Source: a virus
Length of the DNA: 26,686 nucleotides
IMG/VR virus record: IMGVR_UViG_3300021376_000295
Location: 1 to 26,686 of that record
Direction: 5' to 3' (one strand)
Positions within the stretch are counted from its first letter, which is position 1. Every line of letters begins with the position of its first letter. This document shows positions 2,847 through 18,037 of the stretch, piece after piece. The notes beneath the pieces are model-generated. The model worked only from the letters and a program-made list of their open reading frames with translations, was not told the origin of the DNA and made no database searches. The position numbers and the translations under genes were made by a program.

Positions 2847-2998
2847 CTCTTTGACCTCCTTAATCCAAATTTAGCAAGATACACGTAAATAGTTTCCACG
2901 CTTACCCCGCATTCTTTTGCTATGGCCTCTGGAGATTTTTTATCAATATGATATCTCTTTTTAAGCCACAATTCGCTTGTGTATAGTTTAGCAGACAT
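2843..2998 (-). CDS. Small helix-turn-helix protein (51 aa)
   Basis: A short frame of 51 residues fills the space between the neighbouring genes. It reads as one compact homeodomain-like HTH: a first helix around SELWLKKRYHI, then SPEAIAKECGVSVETIYVYL (about residues 22-41), ending in a basic tail, KFGLRRSKR. Phage proteins and domains attached to homing endonucleases of this kind bind DNA. Its stop overlaps the start of the Nmad1-like gene by four bases (ATGA), which strongly supports it being real. An AAAGGAG lies 15 bases before the ATG, too far for ideal spacing, so a non-ATG start slightly upstream is possible. It may be a regulator of the terminase block or an additional packaging factor; neither is shown. 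Confidence 0.7.
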   Translation of the reverse strand: MSAKLYTSELWLKKRYHIDKKSPEAIAKECGVSVETIYVYLAKFGLRRSKR

Positions 2999-3013
2999 AA
3001 TATTAATTGTCAA
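2985..3013 (-). promoter_or_regulatory. Possible promoter inside the start of the small HTH gene
   Basis: A perfect -35 hexamer TTGACA (3008-3013) is followed 17 bases later by TAAACT (2985-2990), which matches four of six -10 positions and is preceded by an extended-10 TG. It would transcribe the Nmad1-like and terminase genes. The -10 is imperfect and the site overlaps a coding start, so this is tentative. Confidence 0.3.
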
Positions 3014-3019
3014 CTCCTT

Positions 3020-3727
3020 TCATATACCGTTATCCTCCATATATTTCAATCTCTCTGTGTATGAGTCAAACGCAGGCCCACCTTCATTTTCCATGTTCAT
3101 AATGTCATAATGATATGCATCCGAATCCTCTGTGACCCATTTAGAGGCATCCTCAACATCCCATTTACGATTAGAATTAATTAATCTATGAATCAATGGC
3201 TTACCAATCTTTGTAGTAAAAGATGGTTCCAATATAAATACACGGTTGTTAGGTTGAATCGCAAAGTTTCCGTCGTCTCTTTGAATAACATGACCACACT
3301 TATGTTGTCCAGGAGTTTCCGAATACCCATCATCTAAACTATTACCATCCCCACCGTACCAGTCAAGAGTAAATAAATATTTACCACTTATCTTAGTTTT
3401 AGTTCTATCAGTATAATACATCTTCAAATTTGTAAGCCCCGAAAATTTTGTGACGGTAACAAAAGGACTAAACGAATTCCACAATACTAAGTTATGTATA
3501 TCTTCCTCTGGTACTCCAGGCTCAGTACAAAAAGCACTAACAGGCATTCTCCACCATAGTCCACCATCTTCCATCATAAAGTGAAATAGTGGGCTTCGGT
3601 TTGGTACGCTGGATACGCCAAATATTACACAAGGGAAATATTGCTCATGACTATCTTTTTGATTTCTTAAATAGTTTCCACGAACATAGCATTCAATAGG
3701 TGGGATGTTGGCGTTTAATTCTGGCAT
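3020..3727 (-). CDS. Conserved-looking phage protein of unknown function
   Basis: I do not recognise a functional family in this 235-residue protein. It is soluble, rich in aromatic residues (Trp, Tyr, Phe) and looks mostly beta-stranded, with no signal peptide or membrane segment. A GGLWWRMP stretch lies near residue 56, and the C-terminal third contains many acidic and aromatic residues. A TTG at 3748 would add seven residues, but the ATG at 3727 forms a tight TAATG junction with the stop of the RuvC-like gene and has an AAAAGG about ten bases upstream, so I prefer it. Its place after the resolvase and before the packaging genes suggests a role in late DNA metabolism, without direct support. 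Confidence 0.75.
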   Translation of the reverse strand: MPELNANIPPIECYVRGNYLRNQKDSHEQYFPCVIFGVSSVPNRSPLFHFMMEDGGLWWRMPVSAFCTEPGVPEEDIHNLVLWNSFSPFVTVTKFSGLTNLKMYYTDRTKTKISGKYLFTLDWYGGDGNSLDDGYSETPGQHKCGHVIQRDDGNFAIQPNNRVFILEPSFTTKIGKPLIHRLINSNRKWDVEDASKWVTEDSDAYHYDIMNMENEGGPAFDSYTERLKYMEDNGI

Positions 3728-4329
3728 TATTGCACTGCCTTTTCCCAATTATTTATTGCCCAATGACCGATACCTGCTGAGTCTGCAACATCGTTGTCTG
3801 TTATTTTTTTATCATAAAAAATACCTAATAATTTTATTGTTCTTTGCTTTCTAAATTCTCTTTCGTATGCCTTATACCATGATAATGATTTACCTGGATT
3901 GGCAGATCTAATCTGCAATTGCTCTTCTTTAGTTAATTTTTTGTTACCTAAATACGATTGCCAAGTTATTGGAGATACTTTTCCAATAATTTTAAGATTA
4001 GACAAACCTGCGCCACCTATAATTGCTCCCTGTACAAGAGCAAGATCTGCTGCAGTTTTGGGGGAATTCATAAAAACCGTATGCTCAATAACAATAGCCT
4101 CAACTAAATTATAATAATCAAATAAGGCTTTTGTTTTTTTAGTAGCATCAATAACTTTAGTATAAATATCTTTGCCCTCAAACATGATCTTTCCGTGATC
4201 TGTTAATCTTTTATACGAGTATATGGTAAATGCTAAACTACTTGTGCTGGCATCAATTGCACAAATAACACCAGGCTGAGTAGACAACTCTGGCTTAAAA
4301 TATCTATCTGTTTCTTTTGCTCTTGTCAT
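3727..4329 (-). CDS. ruvC: RuvC-like Holliday junction resolvase
   Basis: This is a 200-residue RNase H-fold nuclease of the RuvC type, expected to cut four-way DNA junctions during recombination and before packaging. The four acidic positions of the family can be seen: D26 in CAIDAS on the first strand, E82 in VIEH, and D180 and D183 in DNDVADSAGIG near the C-terminus. The length is close to bacterial RuvC. No RuvA or RuvB partner is in the window, as is usual for phage enzymes. It overlaps the zinc-finger gene upstream by 26 bases and abuts the next gene as TAATG. Phage RuvC-like enzymes can also debranch replication intermediates. The fold assignment is good; the precise substrate is inferred. 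Confidence 0.85.
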   Translation of the reverse strand: MTRAKETDRYFKPELSTQPGVICAIDASTSSLAFTIYSYKRLTDHGKIMFEGKDIYTKVIDATKKTKALFDYYNLVEAIVIEHTVFMNSPKTAADLALVQGAIIGGAGLSNLKIIGKVSPITWQSYLGNKKLTKEEQLQIRSANPGKSLSWYKAYEREFRKQRTIKLLGIFYDKKITDNDVADSAGIGHWAINNWEKAVQ

Positions 4330-4600
4330 TTGACAAATCCTTAATTTCCTTGATTGCTTTTTTTACATCTATTGGATTTATAGAACATCTTGTGCATAGC
4401 AAATCATCGTTATATATTGATAACCTAGATCCACAATCTCTACACATTCTATTTTTTCCTTTTCTTTTTTGTCTTTTTGTTTGTATGTATCTTTGTGCAA
4501 TTTTTTCTTTAGTAGCAGTCTCTCTACATTGTTCTGAACAATATATTTGATATGAAACTATTGATTCAAAGTCATTGTCACACCATTTACAATTCTTCAT
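4304..4600 (-). CDS. Small protein with two zinc-binding cysteine sets
   Basis: This 98-residue basic protein contains two predicted zinc-binding units. The first uses C4, C7, C21 and C25 (CxxC ... CxxxC); the second uses C53, C56, C69 and C72 (CxxC ... CxxC). A lysine- and arginine-rich linker lies between them (about 37-51). Such modules bind nucleic acid or mediate protein contacts; no catalytic motif is present. It overlaps the Cas4/RecB-like nuclease upstream by 14 bases and the resolvase downstream by 26, so all three are probably co-translated and may work together in recombination. The function is otherwise unknown. Confidence 0.8.
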   Translation of the reverse strand: MKNCKWCDNDFESIVSYQIYCSEQCRETATKEKIAQRYIQTKRQKRKGKNRMCRDCGSRLSIYNDDLLCTRCSINPIDVKKAIKEIKDLSNDKSKRNR

Positions 4601-5447
4601 CTTTTAGCAACTCCAGAGGTTTAATTTTAATTACCCCTGTCTCTGCTTCAGCGCATGCTTTTTGAATTGGACAAACCTTACATGTTTTAGAATTAGATCT
4701 ATATGGCTTCTGTGGAAGTTCCTTATTTTTCCAACTCTCGTATACTTTTTTCATCCAATCAAATGCCTGGTCTACCCACCGACGGTAATGATCGTTTACT
4801 AATACTGGTAAAGTTAACAACTTATGATCATTTTTATTTTCATAAATTATAACACCCTTGCCAATTTTCCAAACCTTCATATACATTAATAACTGCATAA
4901 GATGAGCCAACTTGGGATTTCTAGTTCTCTTCTTATACTCAAATCCATCACTAGATATTACTTTAATTTCTCCAATGACACGTTCTTCGTTTATATTTAA
5001 CATTACATCGCCATAACCATCAAATGGTGGATCTTCTGTTTTTACTCTAAACTCCATTGCTGGGTGTGTTTGTTTGTTATATTTTCTTTCTAGAGGATCA
5101 AACTCCATTGTTTCATCAAGAAGACCAGATGCTTTTATTGCTTCTTGAATTCTTTCATGACCCAAAGATCCATTAGTCCTATTTGCAACTCCATATGCGT
5201 CTGAATTGTCATAATGCACTGCTCCATCAAAAGCAAGATACCAGTATCTAGGACATTCTCCAGCACCATAAGTTAATGCAGATGCAGAAAAATTACTTTT
5301 TTTAGTAAACTTTGGTTTTGTTTTTGTCATATATCCAGAATTTATTTTGTCAATTATTCCGTCAACAAAACTTACATCTTCTTGTGATACATTTTTCTTT
5401 TTCTTTGGATCTCTTGTCATTACTTGTTGTAATAAATTTTTAGCCAT
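4587..5447 (-). CDS. Cas4/RecB-type PD-(D/E)XK exonuclease with Fe-S cysteines
   Basis: The 286-residue protein has the core of the RecB/Cas4 nuclease family: H97 in LGHER, D147 in GYGDVM, E160 and K162 in GEIKVI, and Q185 and Y189 in the QLLMYM helix. One cysteine at 65 (ECPRYWY) and three near the C-terminus (C256, C259, C265; CKVCPIQKAC) make the four-cysteine pattern that holds an iron-sulfur cluster in Cas4 and AddB-type enzymes. It is expected to resect DNA ends for recombination. There is no CRISPR array or other cas gene nearby; it sits among RecA-like, RuvC-like and Hjc-like genes, so a recombination role is more likely. The ATG at 5447 has an AAAGGA Shine-Dalgarno and a promoter-like element upstream. 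Confidence 0.87.
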   Translation of the reverse strand: MAKNLLQQVMTRDPKKKKNVSQEDVSFVDGIIDKINSGYMTKTKPKFTKKSNFSASALTYGAGECPRYWYLAFDGAVHYDNSDAYGVANRTNGSLGHERIQEAIKASGLLDETMEFDPLERKYNKQTHPAMEFRVKTEDPPFDGYGDVMLNINEERVIGEIKVISSDGFEYKKRTRNPKLAHLMQLLMYMKVWKIGKGVIIYENKNDHKLLTLPVLVNDHYRRWVDQAFDWMKKVYESWKNKELPQKPYRSNSKTCKVCPIQKACAEAETGVIKIKPLELLKDEEL

Positions 5448-5470
5448 GTCTTATTCCTTTGTTTAAATTA

Positions 5471-5479
5471 ATTATATCA
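5471..5479 (-). promoter_or_regulatory. Extended -10 promoter candidate before the Cas4-like gene
   Basis: The 36-base gap between genes holds TGATATAAT, an extended -10 (TG, one base, TATAAT; hexamer at 5471-5476). No good -35 is visible, which extended -10 promoters tolerate. The flanking 13-mer TCTGATATAATTA recurs exactly in the gap at 18631-18643. Confidence 0.45.
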
Positions 5480-5483
5480 GATA

Positions 5484-5789
5484 TCAGCGAATTATGTATT
5501 TTAGTGCAGATACTAGATTATTTATTGACTCTGCTGCAGTGTAATATATATTTTTTTTACTGCGGTTAGACTTATCCACGTTGGCCATCCAAGTGGCACG
5601 TAGTGCCATTTTAGATGCTATTGCCTGAAGTCTAACGATTTCTAAAGTGGCAACATTCATAGGAATGTCTGGCTTTAGTATTAGTTTTGCAATTACAGTA
5701 AGTGCTGTAGTCAGTTCTTCATCTTTCATGTACTCTGATATTTCTGAGAGTCCATTTATCATTTCTATTGTAGTTTGTTGTTGTTCCAT
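5484..5789 (-). CDS. Small helical phage protein, function unknown
   Basis: This 101-residue protein starts at an ATG that forms a TAATG junction with the stop of the oxygenase upstream; a GTG at 5840 would extend it but would create a 52-base overlap. It is almost entirely helical by composition. The segment around LKPDIPMNVATLEIVRLQ at about 36-53 and the closing SINNLVSALKYIIR resemble a conserved family found in several unrelated phage groups, whose function I do not know. No metal-binding or membrane motif is present. It sits between the oxygenase pair and the Cas4-like nuclease, so it may be a recombination accessory or simply a passenger of the operon. Confidence 0.75.
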   Translation of the reverse strand: MEQQQTTIEMINGLSEISEYMKDEELTTALTVIAKLILKPDIPMNVATLEIVRLQAIASKMALRATWMANVDKSNRSKKNIYYTAAESINNLVSALKYIIR

Positions 5790-6577
5790 TATCCCATCGA
5801 TTCTGTTGATATTCCGTCTTGTAAACCATCTTTTGCCCACAAATTAAAAGCAGCCTGCATGTCTGTCCTTGCTTGTAATTTATCTAAATACTCTTTTCTT
5901 TTCTCTGGATATTTTTCTGGATCTATTGGATTTTCTTCCTTGGTAAATCTATAACTATTAATAGGACAATAATCCATACTAATAATTTCACAGAATTCTC
6001 CTTCTTTAAACTTCCGTTTTGGTCTCCAATGTATTTGATTTACTGCGCTAAATACTATGGTTTGTCCTGCTCCAAGAGTATACCTGGTAAAATTTTTAGT
6101 ATCATTCCAGTTTCCAACATATAAATCCCACTCTATATTTGTATCTGGACAGTAATTAACTGTTACTAAATTTTCATCTGCATCTAAATGCGGTGGCAAT
6201 GCTGGACTATTATCCCCATAGCCATACTTTAAGTTATAATCTATATAATTCCAATGACACAATGCTATGTCTTCTTTATACAATGGCTTTGCAATTTTGT
6301 CTAAAACTGCCTCGCAATCTTCTGGCATATCAAATTCAACTAAAACTCTTGACATATTCTTTGCTATCTTAGGCTGAAACCTACTCTTAAATGGAGATTT
6401 TCTAATATATCCGTCTTCTATTCTATCTCCTATAACAAAAGGTTCAAGTTTACGATTTTCTTGAATTAAATTCATTATCCTTTTCTTTTGATCTTCTGTA
6501 AATAAATTGTCTACATAAAAAGGCAATGGCTTATTATATTTGTCAAACCCAGTTAAATAATTATGAAGTTGAGCCAT
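5789..6577 (-). CDS. Putative 2OG-Fe(II) oxygenase (second of a tandem pair)
   Basis: From the ATG at 6577 the protein is 262 residues. It shows an HxD pair (H130, D132 in PPHLDADE), then a distal histidine and arginine (H183 and R185 in QIHWRPK), the facial triad and co-substrate arrangement of Fe(II)/2-oxoglutarate oxygenases in a double-stranded beta-helix. Such enzymes hydroxylate proteins, nucleic acids or small molecules; the substrate here is unknown. A longer version from an upstream non-ATG start is possible, but the GGGGGGTGG Shine-Dalgarno fits 6577. It overlaps the preceding oxygenase by 17 bases and shares its core pattern (NI-W-L, GQ-I-FS, Q-HWR, FK-G-F-E), so the two are paralogues. 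The C-terminal 60 residues are charged and helical and lack a counterpart in the partner. Confidence 0.7.
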   Translation of the reverse strand: MAQLHNYLTGFDKYNKPLPFYVDNLFTEDQKKRIMNLIQENRKLEPFVIGDRIEDGYIRKSPFKSRFQPKIAKNMSRVLVEFDMPEDCEAVLDKIAKPLYKEDIALCHWNYIDYNLKYGYGDNSPALPPHLDADENLVTVNYCPDTNIEWDLYVGNWNDTKNFTRYTLGAGQTIVFSAVNQIHWRPKRKFKEGEFCEIISMDYCPINSYRFTKEENPIDPEKYPEKRKEYLDKLQARTDMQAAFNLWAKDGLQDGISTESMG

Positions 6578-7178
6578 TTGTCCACCCCCCTGCATCAAAA
6601 TATGCTTTACGATATTTATCAACTTTTTCATCCATAATTTTATTTAAGCCTTCTTCTTTTGGACCAGAGTTTGGATCTGAGAAGTGGCAAAAAACCATTT
6701 CTACAAAATTGCCGTCTTTAAACTCAGTTGGCTTTCTCCAATGTACTTGATGTGTTCCACTAAATGTTATTGCCTGGTTATCCTTTAATATAAATTCTTT
6801 GTCTGGTTCAACAAAAAGTGGCCAACTTATATTAGAACTTAACTGATAGTCAAAAGTAAATCTAGGCTCTTTAAAGGTTTCGTCATAATGAGGAAACAGT
6901 GATGGCTTGAAATGAAATTTGCCACAATTACTAGTGACATTTTCATACCTGGCAAAACAAAATTCTGTTAATACTAGATTGTCGTTGCCACTTACTCGCC
7001 TTGCTACTTTGGTAAATTTTTTAACAACTTCTATCTCTAGTTCAATGAATAAGTTTGCTTGACAATGTTCTTGAACAAAGTTGCCACCAGTGCTTCTAGA
7101 AATAGATTTTCTTACAGAATCTATTCCATCTTGATTTAATATATCATCTACTATTACATTATTTTCATTATGTTTCAT
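6561..7178 (-). CDS. Putative 2OG-Fe(II) oxygenase (first of a tandem pair)
   Basis: This 205-residue protein carries H97 and D99 (FPHYDET), then H146 and R148 (HQVHWRKP), the spacing expected of a 2OG-Fe(II) oxygenase core. Between them lie NISWPLFV and NQAITFS, which match the same positions in the neighbouring oxygenase. The N-terminal 80 residues differ from the partner, so the copies have diverged. Genes of this kind are common in marine cyanophages, where substrates are mostly unknown. The ATG at 7178 is preceded by a GGAGA Shine-Dalgarno, and a TATAAT hexamer lies in the short gap upstream, so it may head its own transcript together with the second oxygenase and the genes after it. Catalytic activity is inferred from the motifs. 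Confidence 0.7.
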   Translation of the reverse strand: MKHNENNVIVDDILNQDGIDSVRKSISRSTGGNFVQEHCQANLFIELEIEVVKKFTKVARRVSGNDNLVLTEFCFARYENVTSNCGKFHFKPSLFPHYDETFKEPRFTFDYQLSSNISWPLFVEPDKEFILKDNQAITFSGTHQVHWRKPTEFKDGNFVEMVFCHFSDPNSGPKEEGLNKIMDEKVDKYRKAYFDAGGWTNGSTS

Positions 7179-11950: not shown

Positions 11951-12610
11951 CTACCAGTCGATGTTTGTCGCTGATGTAGATGAAGGAGTGTCAAAGCCCA
12001 AATAGAATGCCTCTTGCTCTGCGTAAGGGACATGTCGTATTGCTCTTTCTAGTGGATACGGCTCAATACCTTCCCAATTAAATGGCTCCTTATCTGGAGC
12101 AGAAGGAATTAAAGTATAGGATGTTTCAGTTGCCTGACCATTACGCTTTAATTTCCATGTGAGATTTGAAATGCTACCTGTTTCAAGGGCATACTCACGA
12201 ATAGTATTAAATGAAGATTGCCTGCTTACACCCATAGACCAGATAGCAACATAAGGCTTATCCTCAATGCCATCATCTACAAGTACGTTGCAATAGAAGC
12301 GAAGACGAGCCCGCCATCCGCTATTACCTTTTGGATCTTTTTCATACATCTCTTGAGCCCAATCACGCTCTTCTGTAGCCATGGTGTCTAAAGCCTTACG
12401 CCTATAGTCCTTTGGATTTGTGTGTTCTTTTACGACGAGTGCGACACCACGCTTTTCATTGTAATGTGCAGAATCATAATCTAGTTCTTCAATGAACCTA
12501 ACCTTTACTGCTTGTCCATCGGCTAACTTAAGCCATTTAATCTTTGGACCACCTTCCTCTTTTTTTTCAAGCAAGGCATTTATATTTTTTAGTCCCTTAA
12601 CGATACTCAT
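11951..12610 (-). CDS. Putative ssDNA-binding protein (gp32-like)
   Basis: The 219-residue protein has the pattern of a phage single-stranded DNA-binding protein: an N-terminal basic and acidic leader, then WLKLADGQAVKVRFIEEL at 26-43, a typical first OB-fold strand, later RFYCNVLVDDG at about 104-114 and YVAIWSMG at 120-127 as further strands. Aromatic and basic residues are spread through the core. It is directly upstream of dnaE, where it could coat template strands. I see no zinc-binding cysteines (only one cysteine), so the T4 gp32 zinc site is absent. The assignment rests on motif and position and is less certain than for the polymerase. It has a strong AGAGGAG Shine-Dalgarno and a consensus promoter immediately upstream. 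Confidence 0.68.
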   Translation of the reverse strand: MSIVKGLKNINALLEKKEEGGPKIKWLKLADGQAVKVRFIEELDYDSAHYNEKRGVALVVKEHTNPKDYRRKALDTMATEERDWAQEMYEKDPKGNSGWRARLRFYCNVLVDDGIEDKPYVAIWSMGVSRQSSFNTIREYALETGSISNLTWKLKRNGQATETSYTLIPSAPDKEPFNWEGIEPYPLERAIRHVPYAEQEAFYLGFDTPSSTSATNIDW

Positions 12611-12665: not shown

Positions 12666-14108
12666 TTAGTTATATTTAGTTAAATATTCCTGTATCTCTA
12701 CTCCTTTAAACTCTTTTGCTTCTTTATACAGTCTATCATATGCGCTCTTTGTTTGCAAATTAGAAACTGCATGTGATTTATTAAATTGTCCTGTGCCCAC
12801 ATAAGTGGTCATCCAAGACTGGTAGCCAAATGTTTTATTATTATTTTTTATAACAAACTCAGAAATATATGAGTTGTCTAATTCATCTAAAACATTTTTA
12901 GCATAATCTGGAATAATATTTTTATTTTTAAAATTTTTCCAGAAATCTGTATCGTCCCTGTCGGTTAAATAATGAATGTATATAAAACCTAAAATTTCTT
13001 TATTTTTTTCTAGTACTTTATTATTATATTTTTCTATTACAGAATAATCTTTTTCTGATATAAATTTATGCATAAAGTCGTCAGAAATAAATAGATTCAT
13101 CATATAGATTGTTAACATAATTGACGTTCCATGCAATGGTTCAAAAAATCCAGATGCTAAACCAACAGATAAACAATTTTTAGCCCAGGGTTGCTTATAG
13201 TATCCTGGTTTAAAATCAAAATGATTTACTATTTTAACATCTTCTTTTTTAAATAATTCATATATTTCTTGCTCTGCTTGTTCTTTGTTTATATATGATG
13301 GATCATAAACATAGCCACATCCATATCTATGCTTAAGCGGTGTTTTCCAAACCCATCCGTATTTCATTGCAATTATTTCTGTACATAAAGAATAATCTTC
13401 ATCTTGTGGCAAAAAGAATGCTAGTGCTTTTGTGCATGGCAAACTTTCAGATGTGTCAACCCACTCGGATTGTAAGTGTTTTCCAATAATTAGATTATTA
13501 AACCCTGTTGCATCAATGACAAAATCACAATCATAAAAACCTTTTTCTGTGTGAACTACACTAATTGCACCCTCAAATTCTCCAAAGTGTGTAAACACAT
13601 CGTCAACAACTTTAATTCCTCTAAGTTCAGAATGTTTTCTAAAAAACTCAGCAAGTTTAATTGCATCAAGATGCCACCCAGCATAGGGCCAGGTAAGTGT
13701 ATTTGACATTGTTGCCGACAAACCTTTATTTATATCATCAAGATTTTTATCATTTGACATTAATTCTATAGACGCAAGCCTAAACTGCTCTAATTCAAAA
13801 TCTCTATTTTCACTGCTATCTGATATATAATTTGTTAATGGATGAAAGTATGATTTGTTTTTTTTAGACCATCCAATAAATCGTATACCATTTTTTAATG
13901 TTGCACCAGTATGTTCAATAAACTCATTTAATGGCAAATCTAACTCATCAAAAATATACCTAAAATTAGAAGTTGTTCCTTCTCCAGCACCAAGCACACC
14001 TATTTTAGAACTATCAATTATTGTAATATCAGAGTCAGTATATTTATGCTTAATAGTAAGTGCTGCCAAGTATCCAGCAGTACCGCCACCAATAACAACT
14101 ATCTTCAT
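12666..14108 (-). CDS. Flavin-dependent halogenase (tryptophan halogenase family)
   Basis: The 480-residue protein begins with a dinucleotide-binding motif (GGGTAGYLAAL at 8-18) and then GEGTTSNFR at 42-50. The catalytic lysine of the family lies in ATLKNGIRF as K72, comparable to K79 of PrnA and RebH. The WxWxxP signature reads WVWKTP at 252-257 (Thr where Ile is common), and the second catalytic residue sits in FFEPLHGTSI as E323. These enzymes use FADH2, oxygen and halide to halogenate aromatic substrates, and need a flavin reductase, which is not in the window. Cyanophages carry related genes, and one enzyme (VirX1) has been reported as a viral halogenase. The ATG overlaps the stop of the membrane-protein gene as ATGA, without a good Shine-Dalgarno, so translation is probably coupled. 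The substrate is unknown. Confidence 0.9.
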   Translation of the reverse strand: MKIVVIGGGTAGYLAALTIKHKYTDSDITIIDSSKIGVLGAGEGTTSNFRYIFDELDLPLNEFIEHTGATLKNGIRFIGWSKKNKSYFHPLTNYISDSSENRDFELEQFRLASIELMSNDKNLDDINKGLSATMSNTLTWPYAGWHLDAIKLAEFFRKHSELRGIKVVDDVFTHFGEFEGAISVVHTEKGFYDCDFVIDATGFNNLIIGKHLQSEWVDTSESLPCTKALAFFLPQDEDYSLCTEIIAMKYGWVWKTPLKHRYGCGYVYDPSYINKEQAEQEIYELFKKEDVKIVNHFDFKPGYYKQPWAKNCLSVGLASGFFEPLHGTSIMLTIYMMNLFISDDFMHKFISEKDYSVIEKYNNKVLEKNKEILGFIYIHYLTDRDDTDFWKNFKNKNIIPDYAKNVLDELDNSYISEFVIKNNNKTFGYQSWMTTYVGTGQFNKSHAVSNLQTKSAYDRLYKEAKEFKGVEIQEYLTKYN

Positions 14109-14407
14109 AAAATTAAACCAAAATATTTAGCGATATAAGCAATAGCAAGAAAAGACCACAAAATATTAAACCAAATTAAAGTAGGAATTGTTTTTACGGT
14201 TGAAGACCAGATTAATCCCAGGCTTGACACTAGAGCAAAAACATAAAACCACCAAACACTTACATCAAACAAAAGACCTGGAAGTATAATTGCAGCCTTT
14301 GCTACAAAAGCAAAAAACTCTACAGTGTTAGCCCTAGTCCAATATTTTTTATGGCCCATTGTTTTTAATGCCTGTAGCCATTCCATGTGCGAATGTTTTT
14401 TTGTCAT
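14105..14407 (-). CDS. Three-helix membrane protein coupled to the halogenase
   Basis: This 100-residue protein has a basic, soluble N-terminus of about 27 residues and then three predicted membrane helices (about 29-47, 50-68 and 75-99), rich in Trp and Phe. I do not recognise a family. It has no signal peptide and no lysis signature, such as a holin-endolysin pair nearby. Its start overlaps the primase stop by four bases (ATGA) and its own stop overlaps the halogenase start in the same way, so it should be made in step with both. It could anchor the halogenase at the membrane, deliver substrate or halide, or be an unrelated accessory. This is inference from position. Confidence 0.78.
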   Translation of the reverse strand: MTKKHSHMEWLQALKTMGHKKYWTRANTVEFFAFVAKAAIILPGLLFDVSVWWFYVFALVSSLGLIWSSTVKTIPTLIWFNILWSFLAIAYIAKYFGLIL

Positions 14408-15348
14408 ACCATCATTCCATTTATTTGATTTTGAAAACTTGAATCTAAATTAATTATATCATAATCTTCCATCTCTCCAATATCTTTATATTTAGAGTCT
14501 AAAGTTATTACAGATGCCAAAGATCCAACCCTATTCATTATTTTTTCTTTCATCTTTAATCCTGCCTCATCATTATCTGCTATCAGTGTAATATCGTTAA
14601 AATATTTCTTTAATAATTCTATTTGCTTTGAAGAAACGTTTGCGCCAAGGGTGGCTACTGCTGGAAGGCCAACTTGATCTAATCTAATTGCGTCAAATGA
14701 AGATTCAACAACATAAACCTTAGAAGCAGTTTTTACTCTGTTAAGATTAAACAATAACTTTGATTTTGGTAATTTTGGTGTATTTTTAAAGTCTTTGCCT
14801 TCTATAGATCTTGCCACAAATCCAACACACAGGCCTTCGTGATTGTGAACTGGAACAGATATCATGTCTTGTGTTTCAGAATATCCTAATTTAAACTTTA
14901 ATACAGATTCTTTTGTAATTTTCCTTTTAGCAAAATAATCTTTTGCTCTTGTTGATGAAGTAGCCTGGTCATGTAATCTTTGTACTACAGACGTATCAAA
15001 CTCTGTCCATTCTTCTTTTTCTACTAACCTAGAATTAACCTCAGACAAAATGTCTATATCAACTTCTTTACTTTTGATAAATCTAACAGATTCAAAATAT
15101 GTTCTATTAGAAAAATGCATTACTATTTCTATTAGATCTGCGGTTCTGCCACAAGAAAAACAAAAAAACAATCCGCTATATTTATTTATTTCTCCAGCAG
15201 GGGTACGGTGATTTGAATGAAATGGACAAAATACAATGTACTCAGACTCTGCTTCTTTTTCTACTGTTACGCCAGACCCTGAGAGAACTCTTTTAACTTG
15301 ACTGGGTGTGTATAAATCGCCTTGGTTCCGTCTATCCCTAATATCCAT
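14404..15348 (-). CDS. dnaG: DnaG-type primase (CHC2 zinc finger plus TOPRIM)
   Basis: The 314-residue protein makes RNA primers for replication. An N-terminal CHC2-type zinc finger uses C41, H44, C63 and C66 (CPFH ... CFSC). The TOPRIM catalytic core begins with VYVVESSFDAIRL at 211-223 (E215, D219) and continues with TLIADNDEAG at 254-263 (D258, D260). The protein ends soon after the TOPRIM, so it lacks the C-terminal helicase-binding domain of cellular DnaG; contact with the DnaB-type helicase must differ. The start at 15348 overlaps the end of the preceding gene by 82 bases. The segment YTPSQVKRVLSGSG at 13-26 looks like the start of a normal primase fold, so the overlap is probably real. 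Confidence 0.92.
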   Translation of the reverse strand: MDIRDRRNQGDLYTPSQVKRVLSGSGVTVEKEAESEYIVFCPFHSNHRTPAGEINKYSGLFFCFSCGRTADLIEIVMHFSNRTYFESVRFIKSKEVDIDILSEVNSRLVEKEEWTEFDTSVVQRLHDQATSSTRAKDYFAKRKITKESVLKFKLGYSETQDMISVPVHNHEGLCVGFVARSIEGKDFKNTPKLPKSKLLFNLNRVKTASKVYVVESSFDAIRLDQVGLPAVATLGANVSSKQIELLKKYFNDITLIADNDEAGLKMKEKIMNRVGSLASVITLDSKYKDIGEMEDYDIINLDSSFQNQINGMMV

Positions 15349-17494: not shown

Positions 17495-18037
17495 CTATAT
17501 TGATTCTGACCAAATTGGTATAAACCTACCGTCTTCAGTCTTGGTATATGTAAGTATACCATCCCCCATTCGGCGTGTCAACTCAGCCTTTGTTGGAGTT
17601 ATATCATTTGTTATTAAATTATCTTTTCTTGGTCTTCCAATATGATATGTAGCCAGTATATCACGAATCTCTCTAACTTGCGATTCAGAATAATATGATC
17701 TAATCTGCCATGCACGTTTGCCATCTTTTTGTGCACCTATAGGATTTGGAATAATTCCACGTTTCATTAATGTAGGCATATATTTTCTATGTCTATTGAC
17801 AAGATCTGCAGTTTCTGATACAGTATATGCTCTTTCTTTTTTATTTTTAAATTCTTTTGTTAAACAACTTTCAGTTTTATCTTTTGTTATATTATAAATT
17901 GACATAATGCCATTTGATCTGTTATAATGAATAACTCTAACTAAGTCTTTATTTAAAAACCAAATTTTTTTACTTCCTGTAATTACAGAGGAGAGGTTGT
18001 AGTCTTCGCTCGTTCTAATTCCTTTTTTAATAACCAC
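17495..18037 (-). CDS. MerR-like HTH DNA-binding protein with AT-hook-like motif
   Basis: The 180-residue basic protein has a central winged HTH like the MerR/excisionase group: YTVSETADLVNRHRKYMPTL at 71-90, RGIIPNPIG at 93-101 as the wing region, then a helix to about 130. GRPRK at 134-138 is an AT-hook-like minor-groove motif, followed by TKAELTRRMGDG. The first 65 residues form another, Tyr-rich and basic domain I cannot place. It probably controls transcription or binds replication DNA. The GTG start at 18037 has a GGGGAAGG Shine-Dalgarno and lies 55 bases inside the preceding zinc-ribbon gene. It stands at the boundary of tail and replication genes, which suits a switch regulator, but no operator was identified. 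Confidence 0.75.
   Translation of the reverse strand: MVIKKGIRTSEDYNLSSVITGSKKIWFLNKDLVRVIHYNRSNGIMSIYNITKDKTESCLTKEFKNKKERAYTVSETADLVNRHRKYMPTLMKRGIIPNPIGAQKDGKRAWQIRSYYSESQVREIRDILATYHIGRPRKDNLITNDITPTKAELTRRMGDGILTYTKTEDGRFIPIWSESI

Follow-up and report, generated by a model that had tools for sequence, protein, structure and literature searches.

The window, that is, the whole 26,686-base IMG/VR virus record analysed here, has a G+C content of 34% and carries nearly all its genes on the minus strand, in the order DnaB helicase, a 108-aa ORF, primase, TM100, halogenase, SSB, DnaE, RecA, resolvase, nucleases and terminase (Table 1). The first-pass annotation had placed one flavin-dependent halogenase (FDH) at 12666-14407, and the 480-aa frame is indeed real, but it occupies only part of that interval, the remainder being a separate gene upstream, here called TM100, which is more out of the ordinary than the FDH and was overlooked within those limits. 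Likewise, the location proposed for the FDH, between primase and ssDNA-binding protein, is right as to the replication gene cluster, although TM100 separates the FDH from the primase, and the ATGA coupling reported for it is found at both the primase/TM100 and the TM100/FDH overlaps. By its homologous DnaE (55% identical) and terminase (54%), and by its gene order, the window is similar to the Stanwilliamsviridae (Streptomyces phages), and because of this kinship the host would probably be found among the Actinobacteria.

Table 1. Features of the halogenase locus, in window coordinates.
Feature	Position	Strand	Match or remark
DnaG-like primase	14404..15348	minus	overlap with TM100 is ATGA
TM100 (100 aa), membrane protein with three helices predicted in the membrane; conserved companion of viral halogenases	14105..14407	minus	
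FDH homologue of 480 aa with His in place of the catalytic Glu	12666..14108	minus	PF04820, phrog_2928, PDB matches
GGGTAG, residues 7-12, FAD dinucleotide-binding motif (GxGxxG)	14073..14090	minus	
Lys72, equivalent of PrnA K79 and PyrH K75 (reactive lysine)	13893..13895	minus	
WVWKTP, residues 252-257, WxWxxP motif	13338..13355	minus	
Glu323, EPL glutamate (PyrH E351), structural, not catalytic	13140..13142	minus	
His326 (CAT), at the catalytic Glu position (PyrH E354, PrnA E346, RebH E357)	13131..13133	minus	
Thr328-Ser329, halide-binding pair (RebH T359-G360; BrvH T351-S352)	13122..13127	minus	
Sigma70-type promoter match, perfect TTGACA-17-TATAAT, before ssb and past the FDH stop codon	12633..12661	minus	
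ssDNA-binding protein (SSB)	11951..12610	minus	phrog_9721

The assignment of the FDH to its family is not due to chance, since it matches the Pfam family Trp_halogenase (PF04820), with homology over the full length, at E=1.7e-92, scoring 311 bits where the cut-off is 21; its PHROG match, phrog_2928, bears the label "tryptophan halogenase". The comparison with characterised halogenases recommended in the first-pass annotation gave PyrH as the best PDB match (phmmer), followed by PrnA, RebH, BrvH and VirX1, and every PDB match down to E=1e-31 is a flavin-dependent halogenase, the non-halogenating flavoproteins LodB and QhpG showing weak similarity to the FAD part. The FAD motif and the reactive lysine had been correctly recognised: 129 of 131 viral homologues keep all the glycines of the former, the other two having gaps there, and Lys72, which aligns with the lysine of the characterised enzymes, is conserved in 130 of the 131, with one gap. 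The WxWxIP-type motif carries, as had been noted, Thr in place of Ile; this Thr was considered as a special feature and dropped, being present in 17 of 131 viral halogenases. The correspondence of the halide-binding pair in BrvH and RebH is taken from PMC5945002. These residue assignments rest on alignments, and an AlphaFold model made with six close relatives (pLDDT 38) was not used. The reading of the gene as a phage FDH homologue with its FAD motif, lysine and WxWxxP signature intact, within a replication cluster, is thus upheld.

It is at the catalytic glutamate that the earlier account, which spoke of intact catalytic residues and named E323, no longer holds. In the ungapped phmmer alignment of the key loop, FFEPLHGTS in the window faces FVEPLESTG in PyrH; PyrH T356 falls on T328 without a gap, and therefore PyrH E354, the counterpart of the catalytic glutamate of PrnA (E346), RebH (E357) and BrvH (E349) (PMC5727139, PMC5945002), falls on H326, and PyrH E351 on E323. 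The alignment proposed as a check of K72 and E323 thus bears out the lysine and not the glutamate, the latter being the EPL glutamate found in all 131 viral homologues. At position 326 the 131 unique viral halogenases have E in 123 cases and H in 8, every H belonging to the clade of the window, where His is present in 13 of 13 contigs, so that the whole clade departs from the PrnA/RebH/PyrH class at this position. Of the 55 viral loci found by a close protein search, the 12 close relatives all read PLH, and the others, as far as they cover this region, read PLE. The DNA pattern GFxEPLH[AG]T matched 14 viral contigs, 13 of them within halogenase ORFs, from 13 metagenomes. Across 84,980 cellular genomes the same pattern matched 79 stretches, of which none lies within a halogenase ORF, and no cellular relative came up when genomes were scanned with the clade alignment. 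This census is not exhaustive, since the pattern requires G, F and A/G at its flanking positions and conserved peptide patterns served to collect the viral set.

In the tree, the eight H sequences form one clade of single origin (support 100), whose stem is long, at 0.94 changes per site. Two bases must change for E to become H (GAR to CAY), and each of the seven sequences read has CAT; the dN/dS of the gene within the clade, 0.08-0.19, is that of purifying selection. Because the His is confined to one clade of 13 contigs with so low a dN/dS, it looks like a selected change rather than decay. Besides H326, the residues fixed in this clade only are Y13, L91, L147, A200 and C242. Position 91, Leu throughout the clade as against F in 109 of 123 others, comes third in the HxF (Trp2) motif, which stacks on the indole (PMC8269204), and the window has H89-P90-L91 in its place. 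As for the Trp4 carboxylate motif, the published strings are absent by eye, in a C-terminal region that aligns with PyrH, and this was judged on sequences rather than on a substrate-bound model.

The TM100 gene lies upstream of the FDH. The window protein has no match in Pfam or PHROG, and none was found in 50,697 phage records; close relatives occur in 94 viral stretches, and a profile-guided scan raised the number to at least 267. Among 38 aligned members 40 residues are invariant, including W10, Y22-W23, W52-W53, S68-S69-T70 and K72-T-I-P-T-L-I-W-F-N81. The model (pLDDT 74) consists of an N-terminal helix and three longer helices, and the hydropathy is consistent with a membrane protein. 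The best Foldseek matches of this moderate model are small carriers of the SemiSWEET/PQ-loop type (TM-score ~0.5), at E-values of 1-5, which are not significant; an hhalign comparison with 28 SemiSWEETs did no better than reversed controls, and the kinship is kept as a lead. The Pfam family SdpI, matched by 10 of the 38 members with a best E=0.0038, was set aside as too weak. Cellular forms were sought in two phyla, in 297 genomes of one and 299 of the other, with one weak match (E=1.4e-4), judged to be chance as it lies inside a 783-aa frame. A search of the open texts of PubMed Central yielded VirX1 and the cyanophage prnA with no mention of a TM100-like partner; TM100 is thus apparently undescribed as a partner of halogenases.

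The association of the two genes is strong. An FDH adjoins TM100 in 56 of 88 loci, upstream in 27, downstream in 25 and, in a few, with one gene between or on the opposite strand, and these loci fall into 13 gene-content backgrounds by a rough clustering, TM100 recurring with FDHs in many unrelated uncultured viruses. When whole TM100 contigs were searched, an FDH was encoded in 28 of 31, including all 15 of at least 40 kb, and the three contigs with none are fragments of 26-35 kb; for comparison, the window FDH is matched by 66 of 50,697 phage records. The converse is weaker, with TM100 in 9 of 20 long FDH contigs, some of which had been picked as known carriers, and in none of the four cultured halogenase phages tested. 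The FDHs linked to TM100 are scattered across the viral FDH tree, including the clade that holds both proteins of phage Syn10. Median identity across backgrounds is 73% for TM100 and 30% for the FDH, and as the synonymous sites are near saturation, the TM100 value points to an old and strong constraint and not to recent transfer alone.

The behaviour of the slot in related phages is instructive. In two of them (L237 and L245), whose DnaB (88-91%), SSB (85-86%) and TM100 (89-90%) are nearly those of the window, the FDH in the same slot is 38-40% identical to that of the window over the aligned part and has kept the Glu; in L302, an otherwise close relative, TM100 (70%) is present and the slot has no FDH; and in many cousins TM100 stands alone in the slot, with the FDH elsewhere. 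From these cases TM100 is the constant part, and the FDH the part that is exchanged.

With regard to expression, the promoter match before ssb recurs, slightly altered, in members of the clade and in some relatives. The FDH would thus be read with the primase and TM100, whereas ssb-dnaE could start separately from this putative promoter, a consensus match and not a proof. The expression with the replisome supposed in the first-pass annotation is thereby weakened, and for the replisome proteins downstream it is no longer implied. A second perfect match, TTGACA-18-TATAAT, lies at 17899-17928 on the plus strand, opposite to the genes.

Some further observations concern the surroundings of viral halogenases. 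Syn10 (L058) has two adjacent halogenase homologues, at 2887-4410 and 4400-5992, the second annotated as a hypothetical protein, although its 530 aa suit VirX1 better than the annotated one does; tandem halogenase pairs are also found beside TM100 in L238 and L281. A protein of ~245 aa (phrog_7084) recurs beside viral halogenases, at 5964-6761 in Syn10, where it is next to the pair of halogenases, and in many TM100 loci (for example L268, 4672-5457); of four long contigs from the clade of the window, three have it at another place. In the window, 5789-6631 and 6561-7178 (minus) encode adjacent related proteins with HxD...H patterns (PHLDAD...NQIHWR; PHYDE...HQVHWR) that resemble oxygenases of the 2OG-Fe(II) type, with no Pfam family and weak PHROG matches only; 2OG oxygenases are often near halogenases in marine phages (HTVC008M). 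The 242-aa product of 3020-3748 (minus) has the PHROG label "ferredoxin" (phrog_3704), its sequence not being obviously ferredoxin-like.

The reading that we prefer, to which we give about an even chance, is that TM100 and the FDH constitute a two-gene phage module, made from ATGA-overlapping genes, in which a halogenase, probably active but with its acid-base chemistry altered and acting on a substrate other than tryptophan, would work with a membrane partner. The FDH would bind reduced FAD, presumably supplied by a flavin reductase of the host (a reductase of family PF01613 was sought in four clade contigs and not found), and would form HOX from O2 and halide, which would then pass through the tunnel to Lys72. 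The His326 of the clade would stand where the glutamate orients HOX and takes the proton of the substrate, and with the indole-stacking aromatic replaced by Leu91, the pocket may have been remodelled to take, instead of free tryptophan, some other substrate that is perhaps phenol-like and richer in electrons. TM100, whose place as the membrane partner is suggested by gene association, might tether the FDH at the membrane or carry substrate, product or halide. It could also be that the invariant Trp and Tyr of TM100 are themselves what the FDH halogenates, and these aromatics are abundant (W10, Y22, W23, W52, W53, Y55, W67, W79, W84) in a protein almost never seen without an FDH; but nearly the same TM100 pairs with FDHs that are only 30% identical, the aromatics are mostly within the membrane, and TM100 is missing from roughly half the viral contigs with an FDH that were tested, which makes this very improbable.

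An active halogenase is favoured because the Lys, the WxW and the halide-binding Thr are all kept, and most likely it acts on a different substrate, which may be more electron-rich, with His perhaps serving as the base. The glutamate is missing in phenol halogenases, and that of VirX1 is said to aid less activated substrates (PMC8407142). On the other hand, H326 may cripple halogenation, because PrnA E346Q is ~100 times slower, K79A abolishing the reaction (PMC5727139), and the E-to-Q form of MalA is inactive (PMC8407142). That the clade has lost a residue which the tested enzymes need in order to halogenate efficiently, together with its long stem, would suit a departure from halogenation towards a flavin monooxygenase or oxidase that used the C4a-hydroperoxide directly on its substrate, and the weak likeness of the FAD part to LodB and QhpG goes the same way, though any FAD-binding domain gives that. 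Against this, Lys72 would be superfluous in a pure monooxygenase, and the whole clade keeps it, along with the halide-binding Thr and both Trp of the WxW, which are thought to suppress monooxygenation (PMC5945002), so that we regard such a departure as rather unlikely. That the FDH is an ordinary viral halogenase, in which His does the general-base work of Glu with the substrate class unchanged, agrees with the retention of the fold and of all the other motifs. His can be a base at neutral pH and might serve as such here; yet other fixed changes accompany the passage from E to H, including the one at the indole-stacking position 91, and we consider this explanation improbable. Finally, an inactive remnant, to which only the missing catalytic Glu would point, is hardly credible in view of an ORF that is full-length in 13 contigs, drawn from 13 metagenomes, the constraint on its evolution and the invariance of Lys72 and all the cofactor motifs.

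More tentatively, and at rather less than an even chance, the pair of TM100 and an FDH could be a general, undescribed viral module of membrane-associated halogenation, in which TM100 would be the fixed docking site or carrier, the FDH would be swapped to change the product, and the clade of the window would have turned the catalytic pair Lys/Glu into Lys/His. In any case, a clade in which a universal catalytic residue has been naturally exchanged offers a direct natural test of the role of that glutamate, and a constant partner such as TM100 gives a handle on where in the infected cell phage halogenases act, and on what, the more so as the pairing recurs across many phage backgrounds and phage halogenases are widespread.

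Among known systems, phage BillNye and its relatives in the Stanwilliamsviridae have the replication and packaging gene order of the window, but in BillNye neither halogenase nor TM100 stands between primase and ssb, that slot being empty. The tryptophan halogenases PyrH, PrnA and RebH share with the window FDH the fold family (E=1e-57 to 1e-47, phmmer), the Lys, the halide Thr and the WxWxxP, and differ in having E354, E346 and E357, respectively, where the window has H326; the window also has Leu as the Trp2 stacking residue and no evident match to Trp4. BrvH, a metagenomic indole brominase (PMC5945002), resembles it in the halide pair and has no Trp4 motif, which the window may lack as well, but has the catalytic Glu (E349). 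The statement that few viral halogenases have been studied is true of their biochemistry, VirX1 being the characterised one (PMC8407142), and not of the genes, which are common in phages and present, for example, in 20 of 153 cyanophage genomes (PMC10452541). VirX1 (cyanophage Syn10, PDB 6qgm; PMC8407142) is, like the window FDH, a phage PF04820 protein with FAD motif, reactive Lys and WxW, from which the latter differs by His at the catalytic Glu; the Syn10 homologues are ~25% identical to it and both fall in a separate clade of the tree, and Syn10 itself is a marine T4-like phage in which TM100 was sought and not found. The PrnA-like protein of Pelagibacter phage HTVC008M (34.8% identical) and the cyanophage prnA (PMC3037559) are phage halogenases that share the signature AMKYGWVW with the window, while keeping the Glu, in genomes that, as tested, are without TM100. 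Phage halogenases as such are therefore already known, and what is new here is a variant of the catalytic site together with a strongly associated, apparently undescribed membrane partner.
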